Positions 4,901 through 50,794 of a DNA stretch of 64,000 nt are shown one piece after another. Each line of letters starts with the position of its first letter. Within the stretch, counting starts at the first letter, position 1. The DNA comes from Stenomitos frigidus ULC18 (GTDB lineage: Bacteria > Cyanobacteriota > Cyanobacteriia > Leptolyngbyales > Leptolyngbyaceae): the NCBI RefSeq assembly GCF_003003795.1, contig NZ_PVWK01000142.1, forward strand, positions 124,001 through 188,000, given 5' to 3'. The notes under the pieces are model-generated. The model did no database searches. It was not told where the DNA came from and saw only the letters and a program-made list of their open reading frames with translations. Both the position numbers and the translations under genes were made by a program.

Positions 4901-4930
4901 CGTAGGGACGTTACAGGTAACGTCCCTACG
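4901..4930. repeat. Perfect palindrome, 14-bp arms
   Basis: CGTAGGGACGTTAC, a 2-base centre (AG), then its exact reverse complement. The same core (GTAGGGACGTTAC) forms a longer palindrome at 34221-34260, so this is a dispersed repeat. It lies just upstream of the ferredoxin gene and downstream of atpG. Confidence 0.8.
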
Positions 4931-17647: not shown

Positions 17648-17680
17648 TAGACCTCCGAGGTTTTGAAAACCTCGGAGGTC
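17648..17680. repeat. AGACCTCCGAGGTTTT palindrome, copy 1
   Basis: Perfect 16-bp arms around one central G. Full or half copies recur at 18038, 19477, 19527 and 24481. Preceded by a half copy near 17600 (ACCTTGGAGGTTTTAA). Confidence 0.85.
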
Positions 17681-17720
17681 TTGCCTAGCTCTAAAATAAA
17701 GGGTGGGCATTGCTTGATGC

Positions 17721-24480: not shown

Positions 24481-24513
24481 AGACCTCGGAGGTTTTGGAA
24501 ACCTCCGAGGTCT
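24481..24513. repeat. AGACCTCGGAGGTTT palindrome, copy upstream of the TIR gene
   Basis: 15-bp arms around TGG, the second full copy of the palindrome at 17648-17680. The two full copies enclose the toxin-antitoxin and TIR-STAND block. Confidence 0.85.
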
Positions 24514-34220: not shown

Positions 34221-34260
34221 GGCATTGTAGGGACGTTACACGTAACGTCCCTACAATGCC
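34221..34260. repeat. Perfect palindrome, 19-bp arms
   Basis: GGCATTGTAGGGACGTTAC and its exact reverse complement around AC. Shares the 13-base core with 4901-4930. It sits five bases after the plsY stop and probably also ends that transcript. Confidence 0.85.
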
Positions 34261-42915: not shown

Positions 42916-44253
42916 TCAGCGCTGAAAACCTTTTTTGGCTTTTTGTCCATCCTTTTCTTTGGGTTTTGACTTACTCACTTCCTTCAGCGCTTCCTGGAAG
43001 AGGTCGTGGAGATGAAGTGGGACGCTGGCAATTTCTGGAAGCTCTGGCTGCAAAGGCTTTTTATGCTCTTCCAAGAGTGAGTCTAAATCCTTCTGAAGGT
43101 CAAAGGTGGGACGTTCTAACACCGATCGCAGCACCGTTTCTAACGAGGCTGGATAGGTTGCTGCTAAGTGATGCCAGACAAAAGCATTGGTGTTGGCATC
43201 ATCTAGATGTTTACGAATAAGCTTTTCCGCTCCGGGGACGCTCTGCCAATCCTCGGCTTGCAGTACTGTTTCCAACTGGGTATAGGTTGGCAAAAACACC
43301 TGTCCCCAGCGGGGATGCGCTAAGACGGTCACTGCCTCTGCTTTCTTCAATTCAGGCGGCAGGTCAATTTTAGGCGTGACCATTTTCGCGGCCGTTTCTT
43401 TGCTCTTCAGCATCGTTGACACTGCTTTCGCATCAGCGCCCATCGCTTCAGCAGCTTCCTCGATCGCGGCTTCATCCATCCCAGCTTCGGCTGCCAGATC
43501 CGCCATCGATTTCGATTCGTCGATGCCTGCTTCTGCCAGTTGTTTTTTGGTCAACACTTCTTGGAATTCAGTGATTTTTTTCACTAGCTGGTAGCCTGGT
43601 AGCGTTATCGCATCACTGCCAAAAAAGTCCAGGAAGTCCTGGTGATAGCGTTCCACCGATCGCCAGGCTTCTTCCAAAAGTTCTGGTGCATCGCTGTAGA
43701 GCGATTCTTTATAGTTCTGCTTGAAATTGCCGATCGCCACTGCCAGCTTTGGCTTACCCAGACTGCCCATTGCTTTCCAGGGTGCTGAAAACGTCCAGGT
43801 CTTATCCGTGATGGGGGCGATTTGGGTCAGCAGAATCTCACCTAGCTTCAAGCGCTGCATTTCTTCTAGCGCCGCTGGATCGTTTGGCTTGACGCTGTAG
43901 GGCTTTGCTGTGAGCCAATTCATCAACTCGAACCCATCGGGTAGCTTTTGCGTGACGGCAAACAGCCCGACAAAGCTGCGCTTCCAGCCCTCAAGCAGCT
44001 GTCGATCGCTCTTCGATAGATCAGACGTTTCGGCAATAAACAAATCGATCGGAGTTTGCTTGCCGACTGTCCCTTCGACCACGAAGCGATCGATCACCAA
44101 CGCCTGCTGGTGCTGATCCGACTGTGGCGATCGCGCCAACTGTTCTGCGGAGTAGCACTCTAACGCGGTGGCCAACTCTCCTTCGGCATCCAGCACAAAA
44201 TCAGCTAAAGCTTGTTTGAGTGATCGCGATCGCACCAAAGTTGCATCATCCAC
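42916..44253 (-). CDS. Large conserved-looking cyanobacterial protein, function unknown
   Basis: A 445-residue soluble, helix-rich protein, unrecognised. N-terminal segment SLKQALADFVLDAEGELATA and DRFVVEGTVGKQTPIDLFIA; middle Ala/Glu-rich helices (AGIDESKSMADLAAEAGMDE); Lys-rich C-terminal tail (SKPKEKDGQKAKKGFQR). No membrane segment or catalytic motif. GTG at 44253, with GAGGTC seven bases upstream. Stands alone. Confidence 0.75.
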   Translation of the reverse strand: MDDATLVRSRSLKQALADFVLDAEGELATALECYSAEQLARSPQSDQHQQALVIDRFVVEGTVGKQTPIDLFIAETSDLSKSDRQLLEGWKRSFVGLFAVTQKLPDGFELMNWLTAKPYSVKPNDPAALEEMQRLKLGEILLTQIAPITDKTWTFSAPWKAMGSLGKPKLAVAIGNFKQNYKESLYSDAPELLEEAWRSVERYHQDFLDFFGSDAITLPGYQLVKKITEFQEVLTKKQLAEAGIDESKSMADLAAEAGMDEAAIEEAAEAMGADAKAVSTMLKSKETAAKMVTPKIDLPPELKKAEAVTVLAHPRWGQVFLPTYTQLETVLQAEDWQSVPGAEKLIRKHLDDANTNAFVWHHLAATYPASLETVLRSVLERPTFDLQKDLDSLLEEHKKPLQPELPEIASVPLHLHDLFQEALKEVSKSKPKEKDGQKAKKGFQR

Positions 44254-44455: not shown

Positions 44456-45103
44456 TTACTCCTCTCTGCTGCTTTTCAAAATTAAGTTGATCAGGGTAGT
44501 GACCACGCGATCGCGCTCTATGGGAATGAGTTCTTTGCCGTAGAGCATTTCTTGCGTCAACATAAACGACACTAGCGACCCGAAAAAAATGTGCGCCATC
44601 GCTTCAGAGTCTTCGATGCCAAGCTCTGGGTGGGCATCAAAGTAGCGGGACAGTAAGCTACGACCCCGATGAATCACGGTGCTTGTCCAAAGTCGCGCCA
44701 GTGCAGGAAAGCGTTCTGATTCACCAATGATGATTCGGGTGAGCGCAAGATAGTTTTGATCGGCAACCTTGGTCAGATAGATTTCGGCAAGCTGACGCAA
44801 CCGCACGGCTGGGTCGCCCTCGAAGTCTTCCAGGCAGAACACACTGCGGAACCGATCGAGCGTGACTTGTTCCATCAGCGCTTTAAACAATCCTTCTTTA
44901 TCCTGAAAGTGACTATAGATCGTCTGCTTGGCGACCCCGGCTTCAGCCGCCACCCGATCCATACTCGTCCCGGCATAGCCCGATTGCAGAAAGACTTGCA
45001 TTGCACCCTGCAAGATCTGCTCTCGCTTTTGATTAGCAGCCGATGACCCCTCTTGATAAAGCGTCGAAAGGTCTTCAGGCTGAGATCGAGAATCTTTGAG
45101 CAT
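44456..45103 (-). CDS. TetR/AcrR family repressor
   Basis: A 215-residue dimeric repressor. N-terminal helix-turn-helix at about 30-75 (REQILQGAMQVFLQSGYAGT, MDRVAAEAGVAKQTIYSHF), with a C-terminal ligand domain containing FFGSLVSFMLTQEML. Divergent from the exporter operon and next to a perfect palindrome, so it almost certainly controls that operon and itself. Matches the CecR(YbiH)-type regulator of E. coli ybh genes in context. ATG at 45103. Confidence 0.9.
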   Translation of the reverse strand: MLKDSRSQPEDLSTLYQEGSSAANQKREQILQGAMQVFLQSGYAGTSMDRVAAEAGVAKQTIYSHFQDKEGLFKALMEQVTLDRFRSVFCLEDFEGDPAVRLRQLAEIYLTKVADQNYLALTRIIIGESERFPALARLWTSTVIHRGRSLLSRYFDAHPELGIEDSEAMAHIFFGSLVSFMLTQEMLYGKELIPIERDRVVTTLINLILKSSREE

Positions 45104-45152: not shown

Positions 45153-45215
45153 GCCCCCAACCCCCAACTTTGGGGGCTTTAACTAGTTCTACCCCCAAAC
45201 TTGGGGGCTAGGGGG
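45153..45215. repeat. CCCCCAAxxTTGGGGG intergenic repeat
   Basis: Two CCCCCAA...TTGGGGG inverted units in the TetR/exporter divergent region. A common type of cyanobacterial intergenic hairpin. Confidence 0.6.
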
Positions 45216-45276
45216 CGACCTCCGACGGCTTTTGCGTAAGTCTTGGAGATATTAAATTTTCCAGCGTTTTGTTGTC

Positions 45277-45305
45277 TAATCATACTAGACAGTCTAGTAT
45301 GATTA
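45277..45305. promoter_or_regulatory. Perfect 29-bp palindrome, probable TetR operator
   Basis: TAATCATACTAGAC, central A, GTCTAGTATGATTA: 14 exact inverted base pairs, 50 bases before the HlyD start and 174 from the TetR start. It includes the hexamer TATGAT, usable as a -10 box, so repressor binding would block RNA polymerase. Role is inferred from position. Confidence 0.75.
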
Positions 45306-45354
45306 GCACAATCCACATAGCAAGGTTTGACCGTTAGTCATTAAAGGTCTCACT

Positions 45355-46572
45355 ATGACGACAAGTATTCCAGGTTCGAGTGACAGTGCTCCAGGATCGT
45401 CATCGCTGCCAGTCAAGCGACAGCGCAAGCTGAATCCGCGTTTACTCATAATGCTTGGCGTGCTTGCGATCGCTGGGGTGAGCGCAACTATCTGGTATGT
45501 TCTGTCCCGTCCGTCCGATCGTGATTTGCATCTCAGCGGGCGCATTGAAGGCTACGAGACGGATGTTGGCGCGAAGACGGGCGGACGAGTGGATACGATC
45601 ACCGTGCGAGAAGGCGATCAGGTCAAGCAAGGTCAATTACTGGTGCGCATCAGCGATACCGAAGTGCAGGCACAGTTGCGGGGTGCGGCTGCAAAGGTCA
45701 TTGCGGCTCAGCAACAGGCGCAGCAGGCACAGCTTCAAATTGCCGTCGTGGAAAGCCAGATTCGTGAATCGCAGCTGAATGTCTTGCAGTCGCAGCAGGA
45801 TAGCCAGGGGCGCGTTTACCAGGCGGCTTCGACTGTGGCATCACTAGAAGCGCAGCTGAAGCAAGCAAAGTCGCAGCTAGATTTGGCAAGGGTGACTCGC
45901 GATCGCTACGCCCAACTGGTACAAGAAGGAGCGGTCACGCAAGAGCAATACGATCAACAAGAAACCAGCTACCGGAACGCCTCAGCCAATGTTGAAGCGG
46001 CTCAGAAACAAATTGATGCGGGTGTGGGTGGTCTTGCCTTAGCCCAAAGTTACAAGATTAACCCGGGTATTCGGGATGCCCAACTGGGCGCACTGTTACG
46101 CCAGCGGCAAAGCGCACAGGCACAGCTAAAAGCCGCCGAAGCCGAGATTAAAAATGCGCAGGAAGCGCAGAAGCAAATTCAAGCGCAGATTGACTATCTC
46201 AACATCACCAGCCCGATCGACGGTGTTGTGACGGCACGCAGCAAAGAGCCTGGAGCCGTTGTTACGAATGGGCAAACTGTCCTATCTTTGATTAACCTCA
46301 ACACGGTCTATCTGCGAGGCTACGTGCCTGAAGGCAATATTGGCAAAATTCGGGTTGGTCAAAAAGCACGCGTGTTTATTGACTCCGATCCAAAACACGC
46401 ACTCGATGCCAAAGTTGCCGCGATCGATCCCCAAGCTTCATTCACACCTGAGAACATCTATTTTCGAGACGATCGCGTCAAGCAAGTGGTTGGCATTAAA
46501 CTCACGATCGACAATCCCGGTGGTTACGTCAAACCCGGAATGCCAGCCGACGCTGAGATTGTGCTGGAATAA
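45355..46572 (+). CDS. HlyD family periplasmic adaptor subunit
   Basis: Membrane-fusion protein linking the inner-membrane ABC exporter to an outer-membrane channel. It has 405 residues. A membrane anchor lies at about 31-50 (LLIMLGVLAIAGVSATIWYV), a split lipoyl/barrel domain (GYETDVGAKTGGRVDTITVR, then ITSPIDGVVTARSKEPGAVV) surrounds a long coiled coil (about 100-280), and the C terminus is a beta barrel. Corresponds to E. coli YbhG by sequence style and gene order. Confidence 0.92.
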   Translation: MTTSIPGSSDSAPGSSSLPVKRQRKLNPRLLIMLGVLAIAGVSATIWYVLSRPSDRDLHLSGRIEGYETDVGAKTGGRVDTITVREGDQVKQGQLLVRISDTEVQAQLRGAAAKVIAAQQQAQQAQLQIAVVESQIRESQLNVLQSQQDSQGRVYQAASTVASLEAQLKQAKSQLDLARVTRDRYAQLVQEGAVTQEQYDQQETSYRNASANVEAAQKQIDAGVGGLALAQSYKINPGIRDAQLGALLRQRQSAQAQLKAAEAEIKNAQEAQKQIQAQIDYLNITSPIDGVVTARSKEPGAVVTNGQTVLSLINLNTVYLRGYVPEGNIGKIRVGQKARVFIDSDPKHALDAKVAAIDPQASFTPENIYFRDDRVKQVVGIKLTIDNPGGYVKPGMPADAEIVLE

Positions 46573-46578
46573 ATCCCT

Positions 46579-48546
46579 ATGCATACGACCTCTCCATCCC
46601 CTCACCCCGTCACCCCTCCACTCCATCACCCCTCCACTCCCCCCATCATCCAGGTCAACGGGCTCCACAAGCGCTATGGCAGACTGTCAGCCGTGCGGGG
46701 CATTGACTTTTCCGTGCAGACAGGCGAAGTCTTTGGGCTGATTGGACCGGATGGTGCGGGGAAGACGACGACCTTCCATATTCTCGGTGGCATTATGGAA
46801 GCCACGTCGGGAGAGATTCAGGTGCTGGGGCAAGCACCGCGTAAAGCACGACTGGGCATCGGTTATTTGACGCAGCAGTTTTCGCTGTATCTGGATCTGA
46901 GTATTGACGAGAATCTGCGCTATATTGCCGGATTGCGGAGCGTGAGCGATCGCGACTTTGCTGAACGGCGCGACAAATATCTGCGGCTAATGAGTCTAGA
47001 ACAGTTTAGCGATCGTCTCGCAGGTCAACTTTCGGGCGGCATGAAGCAAAAACTAGCGCTCTGCTGTGCCCTGATTTACAAGCCAGAAGTGCTGCTGCTG
47101 GATGAACCCACGACAGGCGTTGACCCCGTATCGCGGCGCGAGTTTTGGGATGTGTTAGCCGCGCTTGCCAGTGAGGGCGTGACGATCGTCGTTGCCACAC
47201 CCTACCTGGATGAAGCGGAGCGCTGTAACCGCGTAGCGTTGATGTACGAAGGGCAGATTCAGCAGATTGGCACGCCTGCGGAGCTAAAAAATAGTTTGGG
47301 ACTGCATCGTCTAGAAGTTCGCACCAGTCAGCTACAGGCAGCCGAAAAAGTGCTTGAAGCACAAGTGTCCGAATCAGGTGAAGCGACGGCGATTCGTGAT
47401 GTGCAGACCTTTGGCGATCGCCTGGATATCCTTGTCAGCGACATTGAAGCGGGTGAATCCCAGGTACGTGGTCTACTGCGCCAGGAGCACCTACCGCTCG
47501 ACAGCCTTGACCAGACACAGCCAACATTGGAAAACGTCTTCGTGACTCGGTTACGCCAACAGGGTTTAGAACCGCCTTTTATTTCGTTTCCCCGATCGAT
47601 CCGGCGCGATCGCACGTCTAGCGAGGCAGCCATTTACGCACGGAACCTGAACCGGATGTTTGGCACCTTCCAGGCCGTCAAAAACGTCAATGTTGAGGTA
47701 CGCTACGGCGAGATTTTTGGCTTGCTGGGAGCCAACGGAGCCGGAAAAACCACCACGATTAAAATGCTGTGTGGTTTGCTCGAAGCCACTTCGGGCGATA
47801 TTGCTCTCGGTGGCGAACGGGGCAACCTGCGCAGCGGCAACCTGAGACGACGTATCGGCTATATGAGCCAGAAGTTTACGCTGTACGATGACCTGACGAT
47901 CGTCCAAAACCTGGAATTTTACGCTGGAGTTTACAGTATTCCTCAACGCCTGCGACGCGAAAAAATCGCCTGGGTCATCGCCATTTGTGGGTTGGAAGGG
48001 CAAGAGAACCTGCTGACCGGACAACTTCCTGGAGGCTGGAAGCAACGCGTCGCGTTCGGCGCATCAGTCATGCACGAACCTGACATTCTGTTTCTCGACG
48101 AACCTACGTCTGGCGTTGATCCGTTGGCGCGTCGGCAGTTCTGGCGCTTAATCAACGATTTTGCCCGTCAAGGTACAGCCGTTCTCGTCACCACGCACTA
48201 TTTAGAAGAAGCCGAACAGTGCAACCGCATGAGCTTTCTGGTCGCAGGCGAAACCGTAATCGAAGGCTCTCCCAGCCAGATCAAAGCGGCTCAACCCGGC
48301 AAGCTCATCGAAATTACACCCGATCAAAATCAAGCCGCCTCTAATTTGCTTAAACAAACGCTGGAACCCTGGCGCGTTTCTATCTTCGCCGATCGCCTCC
48401 ACGTTGTTGTGGATAATCCCGACACCGAAATTCCTCAATTGCGCGATCGCCTCCAAGCTGCCAACATCACCGTTCATTCCCTCCGATCCATTCCTTACTC
48501 GCTAGAAGATGCGTTTATCGGCACAGTACAAAGAAGCCAGAAATAG
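46579..48546 (+). CDS. ABC transporter ATPase, two fused nucleotide-binding domains
   Basis: A 655-residue double ATPase. Domain 1: Walker A GPDGAGKTTT (about 56-65), signature LSGGMKQK, Walker B LLLDEPTTGVDP. Domain 2: GANGAGKTTT (about 385-394), signature LPGGWKQR (degenerate Ser to Pro), FLDEPTSGVDP. Matches YbhF, powering drug export. The first 22 residues are a Pro/His/Thr tract encoded by a CACCCCTCCACTC-type repeat, which looks like repeat DNA captured at the 5' end of the gene. Starts six bases after the HlyD gene. Confidence 0.93.
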   Translation: MHTTSPSPHPVTPPLHHPSTPPIIQVNGLHKRYGRLSAVRGIDFSVQTGEVFGLIGPDGAGKTTTFHILGGIMEATSGEIQVLGQAPRKARLGIGYLTQQFSLYLDLSIDENLRYIAGLRSVSDRDFAERRDKYLRLMSLEQFSDRLAGQLSGGMKQKLALCCALIYKPEVLLLDEPTTGVDPVSRREFWDVLAALASEGVTIVVATPYLDEAERCNRVALMYEGQIQQIGTPAELKNSLGLHRLEVRTSQLQAAEKVLEAQVSESGEATAIRDVQTFGDRLDILVSDIEAGESQVRGLLRQEHLPLDSLDQTQPTLENVFVTRLRQQGLEPPFISFPRSIRRDRTSSEAAIYARNLNRMFGTFQAVKNVNVEVRYGEIFGLLGANGAGKTTTIKMLCGLLEATSGDIALGGERGNLRSGNLRRRIGYMSQKFTLYDDLTIVQNLEFYAGVYSIPQRLRREKIAWVIAICGLEGQENLLTGQLPGGWKQRVAFGASVMHEPDILFLDEPTSGVDPLARRQFWRLINDFARQGTAVLVTTHYLEEAEQCNRMSFLVAGETVIEGSPSQIKAAQPGKLIEITPDQNQAASNLLKQTLEPWRVSIFADRLHVVVDNPDTEIPQLRDRLQAANITVHSLRSIPYSLEDAFIGTVQRSQK

Positions 48547-48548
48547 TT

Positions 48549-49652
48549 ATGAAGCGTATTCTCGCTCAGTGTGTGAAAGAATTGGCGCAATTTCGGCGCG
48601 ATCGCCTGACATTGGCGTTGGCTTTTTTGCTGCCGTTAATGACGCTTTTAATCTTTGGGTTTGCGATTCGCTTAGAGTCCAAAAATATTCCCTTAGTGGT
48701 GCAAGATTTTGACCATAGCAATCTGAGCCAAACGTATATTGAGCGACTGTTTGCAACGAATCAGTTTCAACCCGTGCGCTGGTCGGGTGATGATCCCATG
48801 CATGACGCGATCGACAAAGGCATTGCCAAAGCAGCAGTGATTATTCCACCCGATTTCAGTCGGCGCATCAAAGCGGATAAACAAAGTTCTGTACAGGTGT
48901 TAGTAGATGGCACGGATGCGAACAATGCACGCGTGATCAAGAACAGCATTAAAGCGACGACCAACTTTTTCTTGACCAATGATGTGTCATCCAGCACACA
49001 AAAGATTCAGGTTCATACTCGCCTTTGGTTTAATCCTGGACGCAAAGAATCGCTCTACATTGTGCCCGGAGTGTATGCCGTAGTGCTGTGGATTTTTCCG
49101 TCATTGCTAGCGGCGATCGCGATGGTGCGCGAGAAAGAAAAAGGCACGATTTTGCAAGTGTATGCCTCTAGCCTCACCGCAGCGGAATTGTTGTTAGGAA
49201 AAGCGTTGGCTTATTTGGTGGTTGGTCTATGCGAAGCGTCGATCATCATGGTTTTGGGTTCACTGATTTTTCGCGTGGGCTTTGCTGGCGATCCAACACC
49301 GCTATTGATTGGTACGCCTATTTATCTCAGTGCTGCAGTCATGTTTGGGTTGCTGTTGGGTGTTCGCAGCGCCAATCAAAACGCGGCTGTGCAGGGTGTT
49401 TCACTCGTTGGTTTTCTCACTGCCTTTCTGCTTTCTGGCTTTATTTATCCTTTGAGTAACATCCCATTTCCGCTATCGATCTTGCCCAATGTTGTGCCTG
49501 CTCGTTACTTCATTATTGTTACTCGTGACGCATTTGTCCGTGGCGTCGGTTGGGCAAGCGTCTGGTTTGACATTCTGATGATGTTGGTTATTGGATTGTT
49601 CTTTTTTAACGTTGCTCGTCGTGCTTTAAGCCGTATGCAGCTACCGGATTAG
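48549..49652 (+). CDS. ABC exporter permease (YbhS-like)
   Basis: A 367-residue ABC-2 permease. One N-terminal helix (LTLALAFLLPLMTLLIFGFA), a large extracytoplasmic domain (about 45-175), then five helices including VVLWIFPSLLAAIAMVREKE, the conserved ABC-2 loop. Starts two bases after the ATPase stop. Forms the membrane pore with the next gene. Confidence 0.92.
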   Translation: MKRILAQCVKELAQFRRDRLTLALAFLLPLMTLLIFGFAIRLESKNIPLVVQDFDHSNLSQTYIERLFATNQFQPVRWSGDDPMHDAIDKGIAKAAVIIPPDFSRRIKADKQSSVQVLVDGTDANNARVIKNSIKATTNFFLTNDVSSSTQKIQVHTRLWFNPGRKESLYIVPGVYAVVLWIFPSLLAAIAMVREKEKGTILQVYASSLTAAELLLGKALAYLVVGLCEASIIMVLGSLIFRVGFAGDPTPLLIGTPIYLSAAVMFGLLLGVRSANQNAAVQGVSLVGFLTAFLLSGFIYPLSNIPFPLSILPNVVPARYFIIVTRDAFVRGVGWASVWFDILMMLVIGLFFFNVARRALSRMQLPD

Positions 49653-49657
49653 AAAAT

Positions 49658-50794
49658 ATGAAGTCTCTTTCTACGTTCTTTAAAGGTTTCTTCGACGGTC
49701 GCTTGATGGCGTTGGTGCGAAAAGAAATCAACCAGATCTTGCGAGATAAGCAACTGCTTGTTTTGTTGATTGTGCCACCGACACTGCAACTATTGCTGTA
49801 TGGCTTTGCACTGAATCCAGATGTGCAATATCTCAAGCTGGGTGTCGTGGATTATGCCAATGTTTCTGCCAGCCGAGAACTGGTGTCGGCACTAACAGAA
49901 AATCAGATTTTTGTAGTGGATTCCTATCCAGCCACAGAACAAGAACTCAGCCGTCAGGTGGAAACGGGAAAGCTGACGGCTGGTATTGTGATTCCGCCAG
50001 AATTTAGACGCGACATTAGTCAGGGTAAAACGGCAGAAATTCAAGCATTTATTGATGGCGTGGATGCAAATACGGCTGGTATTGCGAATGGGTATATCAA
50101 CCAAATTATTCAGCAGTATAGTTTAAACCTAAGTGGCACTCCACTGAAGCCACTGGTTAAACCTGAGGTGATTTTTCTCTACAATCCAGGGCTAATCAGT
50201 AGCTGGTTTTTTGTGCCGGGTGTTATGGGGTTTGTGTTGACGCTCATTGGCAGTTTGGTTTCAGCCGTAACCGTCGTCCGTGAGAAAGATACTGGGACGC
50301 TAGAGCAGTTATTAATGACACCCGCTGAAGCCTGGGAAATTTTGCTGGCAAAAGTGGTGCCTCTGTTTGTGTTGTTAATGGGCGATGTTTTTCTGGCGCT
50401 CAGTTTAGGACGAGTCGTCTTTGGACTACCGTTTCGAGGCAATTTATTGCTGTTTATTGCGATGTCGGGGCTGTATTTATTTGTGGGCATTGGCGTCGGC
50501 ATTACGCTGGCGACGATCTCCAAATCGCAGCAACAGGTTGTTCTCACGGCCTTTTTCATTAACTTGCCGATGGTGCAAACATCGGGCGCGATCGCCCCCA
50601 TTGAAACGATGCCAACGTTTTTTCAGGTTGTCTCATTGCTCAATCCCCTGCGTCACTATATTGCGATCGTGCGTGGCATTTTGCTCAAAGGTGTCGGTCT
50701 AGAAGCACTGTGGATGCATGCGTTGGCGTTAGCAGTAATTGCGATCGTCTTACTCACTGTCAGCGTCAACAAATTCCGCAGTCAGCTTAGTTAA
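49658..50794 (+). CDS. ABC exporter permease (YbhR-like)
   Basis: A 378-residue ABC-2 permease, a partner of the previous one with the same layout: helix at about 35-52 (LLVLLIVPPTLQLLLYGFAL), periplasmic domain, then GFVLTLIGSLVSAVTVVREK with DTGTLEQLLMTP, the typical coupling segment. Ends the operon TetR | HlyD-ABC-permease-permease. Substrate is unknown; relatives export drugs and toxic organic compounds. Confidence 0.92.
   Translation: MKSLSTFFKGFFDGRLMALVRKEINQILRDKQLLVLLIVPPTLQLLLYGFALNPDVQYLKLGVVDYANVSASRELVSALTENQIFVVDSYPATEQELSRQVETGKLTAGIVIPPEFRRDISQGKTAEIQAFIDGVDANTAGIANGYINQIIQQYSLNLSGTPLKPLVKPEVIFLYNPGLISSWFFVPGVMGFVLTLIGSLVSAVTVVREKDTGTLEQLLMTPAEAWEILLAKVVPLFVLLMGDVFLALSLGRVVFGLPFRGNLLLFIAMSGLYLFVGIGVGITLATISKSQQQVVLTAFFINLPMVQTSGAIAPIETMPTFFQVVSLLNPLRHYIAIVRGILLKGVGLEALWMHALALAVIAIVLLTVSVNKFRSQLS

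Follow-up and report, generated by a model that had tools for sequence, protein, structure and literature searches.

The arrangement of a TetR-family regulator beside an efflux pump has been described in several systems. In E. coli, the exporter genes ybhGFSR are accompanied by CecR (YbiH), a regulator of this family whose gene lies on the same strand as the exporter genes and is the first before them. The available part of PMC7190983 describes drug or ion export activity for E. coli YbhFSR. In tetR-tetO-tetA of Tn10 the regulator gene is divergent to the pump gene, and an odd-centred 15-bp palindromic operator occupies the intergenic region, as given in the available part of PMC3511530. The same part of that source reports that TetR regulators separated from a divergent neighbour by under 200 bp act in most cases as its repressors, and that of four regulators tested with gaps greater than 200 bp one was an activator of the neighbour and three left it unregulated.

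The window analysed here, 64,000 nucleotides of Stenomitos frigidus ULC18 (contig NZ_PVWK01000142.1, positions 124,001 to 188,000), contains a divergent pair of this kind, with the following genes.

44456..45103, minus strand: tetR, 215 aa, TetR_N and TetR_C_7 (AefR-like) domains; start ATG 45103
45355..46572, plus strand: hlyD/ybhG-like membrane-fusion protein, 405 aa; 22.7% identity over 357 aa to E. coli YbhG, E 8e-20
46579..48546, plus strand: ybhF-like tandem ATPase, 655 aa, two ABC domains; 42.5% identity over 555 aa to YbhF
48549..49652, plus strand: ABC-2 permease, 367 aa; YbhS nearest in the E. coli set
49658..50794, plus strand: ABC-2 permease, 378 aa; YbhR nearest in the E. coli set

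The start of tetR at ATG 45103 was favoured over TTG 45127 because close relatives align from the methionine at 45103. The product matches TetR_N (PF00440) at 63.2 bits against a gathering score of 24, and the AefR-like ligand domain TetR_C_7 (PF14246) at 52.8 bits against a cut-off of 22. Regulators of the AefR/NalC type belong to the same Pfam family, and the PDB chains 3cdl (AefR) and 8ke8 (NalC) are among the best sequence matches, though remote ones (E 1e-16 and 1e-14). On the other strand, an HlyD-type membrane-fusion protein is followed by a tandem ATPase and two ABC-2 permeases, the order of a YbhGFSR-type exporter. Given the matches of the ATPase to YbhF, of the HlyD protein to YbhG and of the permeases to YbhS and then YbhR when compared with E. 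coli K-12, the exporter was taken to be YbhGFSR-like; by analogy with E. coli YbhFSR, drug or ion export is its putative activity. A gap of 251 bp separates tetR from the exporter genes and contains the palindrome under study, whose distance to the nearest ATG is 49 bp on the exporter side and 173 bp on the tetR side. The sequence-only reading had placed a palindromic operator between this TetR gene and a divergent exporter of YbhGFSR type, and the strong phylogenetic footprint described below supports it. Adjoining tetR, at 42916-44253 on the minus strand, is a gene for a 445-aa protein without a Pfam match.

The same reading had equated the gene order with that of E. coli cecR-ybhGFSR. This holds for the composition and order of the exporter genes but not for the regulator, and orthology of the window's TetR with CecR was rejected. 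E. coli CecR carries the CecR_C domain (PF09209), which the window protein lacks, having TetR_C_7 in its place; similarity by blastp is confined to 28.6% over 56 residues of the helix-turn-helix, with no full-length match; and the window's tetR is divergent from its exporter whereas cecR is on the same strand as, and first before, ybhGFSR. The DNA upstream of cecR in E. coli K-12 has an inverted repeat, CTTAATCAA-TCAT-TTGATTAAG, that is unlike the window palindrome. The layout is shared with Tn10, from which the window differs in having one operator and not two, an ABC pump of YbhGFSR-like type, a TetR_C_7 regulator and another operator sequence.

The palindrome is a perfect inverted repeat of 31 bp (15+1+15), CTAATCATACTAGAC-A-GTCTAGTATGATTAG. 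It had been reported as an exact palindrome of 29 bp (14+1+14), which was correct as to exactness and understated the size by one base pair in each arm. Its extent and its parts, as defined by the sequence and by the conservation described below, are as follows.

45276..45306, no strand: very probable operator, 31-bp perfect palindrome, conserved from -12 to +12 with a free centre
45279..45303, no strand: conserved 25-bp core
45284..45298, no strand: minimal 15-bp core, ACTAGACNGTCTAGT

Perfect odd-centred palindromes whose arms reach 15 or more are expected by chance at 6e-5 per window, or 0.0066 per 6.98-Mb genome. Three further palindromes of the window also attain this arm length, and the longest of them includes a dispersed repeat word with 35 strand-matches genome-wide, so the palindromic shape alone is not decisive for an operator. 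The hairpins at 34221-34260 and 4901-4930 have this word, GTAGGGACGTTACA, in common, and from its 35 matches in the genome they were assigned to a dispersed palindromic repeat. A near-identical pair of long palindromes, AGACCTC[C/G]GAGGTTTT..., lies at 17649-17681 and 24481-24513 with 6.8 kb between them. Within the intergenic region itself, at 45155-45217 between the operator and tetR, there are hairpin-like repeats with G/C tracts, CCCCCAACTTTGGGGGCT and a second copy; CCCCCAANTTTGGGGGCT from these repeats has three exact matches in the genome, and the repeats were not present in the order relatives in the alignment inspected around the operator.

With such company, the 31-bp palindrome might itself be an RNA or DNA hairpin (a terminator, an attenuator or a dispersed palindromic repeat) and not a site for a protein. 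A perfect inverted repeat is what this would require and the window does contain similar long palindromes, one of them with the dispersed word. The loop, however, would be a single base, and a terminator-like site was not found in the region. A search of the whole 6.98-Mb genome for the motif, as the sequence-only reading had proposed, returned one site and no second copy with either the 29-mer or the 25-mer core at up to three mismatches, quite unlike the word with 35 matches. The comparison with other genomes given next counts further against a hairpin: in 49 relatives the sequence itself, and not the pairing alone, is conserved while the centre is free, and every site has a TetR gene, or the remnant of one, downstream of it. 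The hairpin, terminator or dispersed-repeat explanation was therefore rejected as highly improbable.

The phylogenetic footprint was sought with the 25-bp core ATCATACTAGAC-N-GTCTAGTATGAT, allowing up to three mismatches, and with the reversed pattern as control. Among 42 genomes of the order, 30 gave TetR matches (E <= 1e-30), the best match being at 56% identity or more in 22. In all 22 the palindrome lies upstream of tetR, and on its far side there is a divergent HlyD gene. The core is found in 23 of the 42 genomes, once in each, and the reversed control in none; these 23 comprise the same 22 genomes and one other, G038. Extending the search to 388 genomes of the class, evenly drawn from a larger group, gave 55 sites in 54 genomes, as one genome has two, and again none for the reversed control. 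The genome with two is G158, where a pair of 25-bp sites abut directly (G158:C273:13781-13830).

In 53 of the 54 site-bearing genomes, coordinates or tblastn place a related TetR gene directly downstream of the site. The remaining one is G038, which keeps the exporter and where, from the site to the next gene, only a remnant of about 40 residues was found (locus L053 in G038:C10, at 1785-1904), matching TetR residues 173-212 at 52.5% over 40 aa. The two mismatches in its operator are both outside the 15-bp core. G038 is thus a natural case of repressor loss, in which the pump and the 15-bp core are retained beside a fragment of the repressor. A protein resembling the window's 445-aa neighbour comes after the remnant. 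Occurrence at many unrelated loci, which the sequence-only reading had named as evidence against itself, was looked for and not seen: its own genome has the one site, and in 54 of 54 class genomes the site is beside a TetR gene or, once, the remnant.

Counting identical TetR proteins once, here and in the analyses of sites, residue code and tree below, 49 of 51 distinct TetRs with at least 55% identity, among the matches listed, have the 15-bp core upstream at 11 or more of its 12 fixed positions. For the two without it, L095 and L105, the contig stops about 231 and 115 bases upstream. The 25-mer pattern had missed three genomes despite TetRs of at least 55% identity (G233, G274 and G057): two of these cases are at contig ends (L095/L103 and L105), and G274 keeps the 15-mer core with different outer arms. 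When the 49 sites were aligned, conservation extended from -12 to +12 and dropped abruptly outside, and the centre base was free (0.02 bit). A free centre with sharp edges is as expected of a site for a dimer.

Given that the palindrome is kept beside the TetR gene in 53 of 54 genomes, that its core accompanies 49 of 51 TetRs, that it is rare elsewhere and that the controls gave nothing, the operator reading is backed by a strong footprint and the palindrome is very probably the docking site of the regulator. The site is a fresh instance of the already well-known divergent regulator/pump switch. Taking the evidence as a whole, we are highly confident that the best explanation is an operator of the TetR encoded at 44456-45103, whose dimer would repress the exporter, probably also its own gene, and would be released by a ligand.

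A TetR homodimer would most likely occupy the central 15 bp, with one recognition helix in each half-site. Alternatively, two dimers could bind along the long palindrome in the manner of QacR. Close relatives do conserve 25 bp, which is more than the 15 bp common to the wider clade, and the abutting 25-bp sites of G158 are in keeping with paired binding. This alternative was nevertheless judged unlikely, as the 15-bp core persists between differing outer arms (in L104/G274 and in four f36 genomes) and the arms could be retained as -10 elements instead. With a single dimer on the core, bound TetR would cover promoter elements in or next to the palindrome and so block initiation of the divergent exporter operon. 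A small molecule, probably a substrate of the pump, would bind the TetR_C_7 ligand domain, whereupon TetR would be released and the pump turned on. The promoter elements that may be concerned are listed here.

45298..45303, plus strand: candidate exporter -10, TATGAT, in the operator arm; kept in 36 of 49 relatives
45279..45284, minus strand: mirror TATGAT, possible tetR -10, an alternative to the TAGACA/TAATAT pair
45249..45278, minus strand: candidate tetR promoter, TAGACA 45278-45273, 18-nt spacer, TAATAT 45254-45249; weak, 9/12 matches

The overlap of the palindrome with a possible -10 hexamer had also been pointed out from the sequence. A TATGAT does lie inside the palindrome, although the hexamer is frequent by chance (12 in the window against 18 expected) and the scan for sigma-70 pairs did not report the copy at 45298-45303. 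The arm facing tetR reads TATGAT in 37 of 49 relatives and TATAAT in 5, and the two arm hexamers are good -10 candidates. The -35 of the TAGACA/TAATAT pair touches the edge of the operator, and this pair is not significant, the scan having found one weak tetR-facing pair against 0.6 expected in shuffles. Since the hexamer is common and the pair scan weak, we infer the placement of the promoters rather than assign it.

The direction and the target of the regulation were also considered. TetR might bind the site and activate, or it might chiefly control tetR and not the exporter, and the 251-bp gap lends this some weight as it exceeds the range of less than 200 bp in which repression was found, three of the four longer gaps having shown no regulation and one activation (available part of PMC3511530). 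We consider it a good deal less probable than repression of the exporter. The operator is much nearer the exporter ATG than the tetR ATG, the operator arm holds an exporter-facing -10-like hexamer, a divergent HlyD gene was seen in the fetched stretch of 48 of 51 close relatives, and the exporter of G038 retains the 15-bp core after decay of tetR, though that loss may be recent. The case for an operator is thus strong; that for repression of the exporter is somewhat less so, because the gap is outside the range given for repression.

Related cyanobacterial TetRs have operators that vary at base pair ±3, and some of these TetRs, at least, are beside DevBCA-type exporters. A wider set of 159 distinct TetRs of the class, among the matches listed, was compared using the frame ACTA-x-AC-N-GT-x'-TAGT, which was fixed after the first sites had been seen and in which the centre and both ±3 positions were left free. 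The frame was present at 11 or more of 12 positions upstream of 132 of the 159 TetRs among the matches listed, and in five of the reversed upstream sequences. The 27 without a site at this threshold have Pro (11), Ala (7), Gln (5) or Thr (4) at residue 60; 25 of them are less than 55% identical to the window TetR, and all 27 were excluded from the code table and the tree.

Of 180 protein positions, the best single predictor of the ±3 base is residue 60, in the recognition helix, whose mutual information with it is the highest (0.986 bit, or 0.926 after shuffle subtraction), a result obtained with no structural prior. For the 132 TetRs the half-site base x' goes with this residue as follows: where it is Gln, 103 of 112 half-sites have C; where it is Ala or Pro, T is present in 73 of 94 and 16 of 16, respectively; His is accompanied by G in 12 of 16 and Ile by A in 13 of 18. 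The resulting rule agrees in 217 of 264 half-sites, whereas 1000 label shuffles gave 92 on average and never more than 120, a score taken from the same data as the rule and with a shuffling that ignores relatedness. We take residue 60 of the window protein to align with Pro39 of TetR. In the available part of PMC7102968, Gln38, Pro39, Thr40, Tyr42, Trp43 and Arg28 of TetR contact operator bases.

An out-of-sample set was assembled from 80 TetR loci of named genomes; 24 repeat earlier proteins, leaving 56, many of them close relatives. The site was found at 11 or more of 12 positions in 54 of the 56. With Gln-60, C occupied 31 of 42 half-sites and at least one half of 21 of 21 sites; with Ala-60, T occupied 45 of 66 half-sites and at least one half of 33 of 33 sites. 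The rule therefore holds imperfectly, one half-site often deviating. A tree built with the helix columns removed requires 10 or more changes of residue 60 and 35 or more of the base class. Independent starred-branch pairs number two for Gln versus C, of which on average 1.8 agree and 0 oppose, and one, uninformative, for Ile versus A. With so few independent pairs of rows, the correlation of residue and base is not significant and is phylogenetically confounded.

In the 80-locus set, the genes divergent to 37 of 43 Gln-60 TetRs include matches to the HlyD protein, ATPase and permeases of the window exporter, and none of the Ala-60 loci has matches to the window permeases. The one Ala-60 locus examined (L266) has TetR and then, divergently, DevB, DevC and DevA by NCBIfam cut-offs. 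Cyanobacterial DevBCA-type exporters are thus also neighboured by TetRs of this clade, which differ from the window system in the exporter class, in Ala at residue 60, in an operator of the form ACTAAAC-N-GT[T/C]... and in mostly having two sites upstream (two in 38 of 47 Ala-60 cases; one in 52 of 56 Gln-60 cases). It may be that an exporter-linked clade of TetRs, serving YbhGFSR- and DevBCA-type pumps at least, uses the one frame ACTA-x-AC-N-GT-x'-TAGT and has been re-targeted mainly via residue 60, Gln reading GTCTAG, Ala or Pro GTTTAG, His GTGTAG or GTGCAG and Ile mostly GTATAG; we regard the case for and against this as evenly balanced.

The open-licence PMC literature yielded no paper with these operator words, and no study of this regulator or operator was evident there. 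Fixing the operator for a widespread cyanobacterial TetR/exporter pair gives a regulon prediction of one site and one exporter. G038, with the pump, the 15-bp core and a fragment of the repressor, offers a natural comparison for repressor loss. If the residue-60 code is true, it would provide orthogonal repressor/operator pairs native to cyanobacteria, which would be useful as existing inducible systems are leaky or light-sensitive according to the available part of a review (PMC7007895). It would also mean that a natural code of one residue and one base pair separates paralogous pump switches within one cell.
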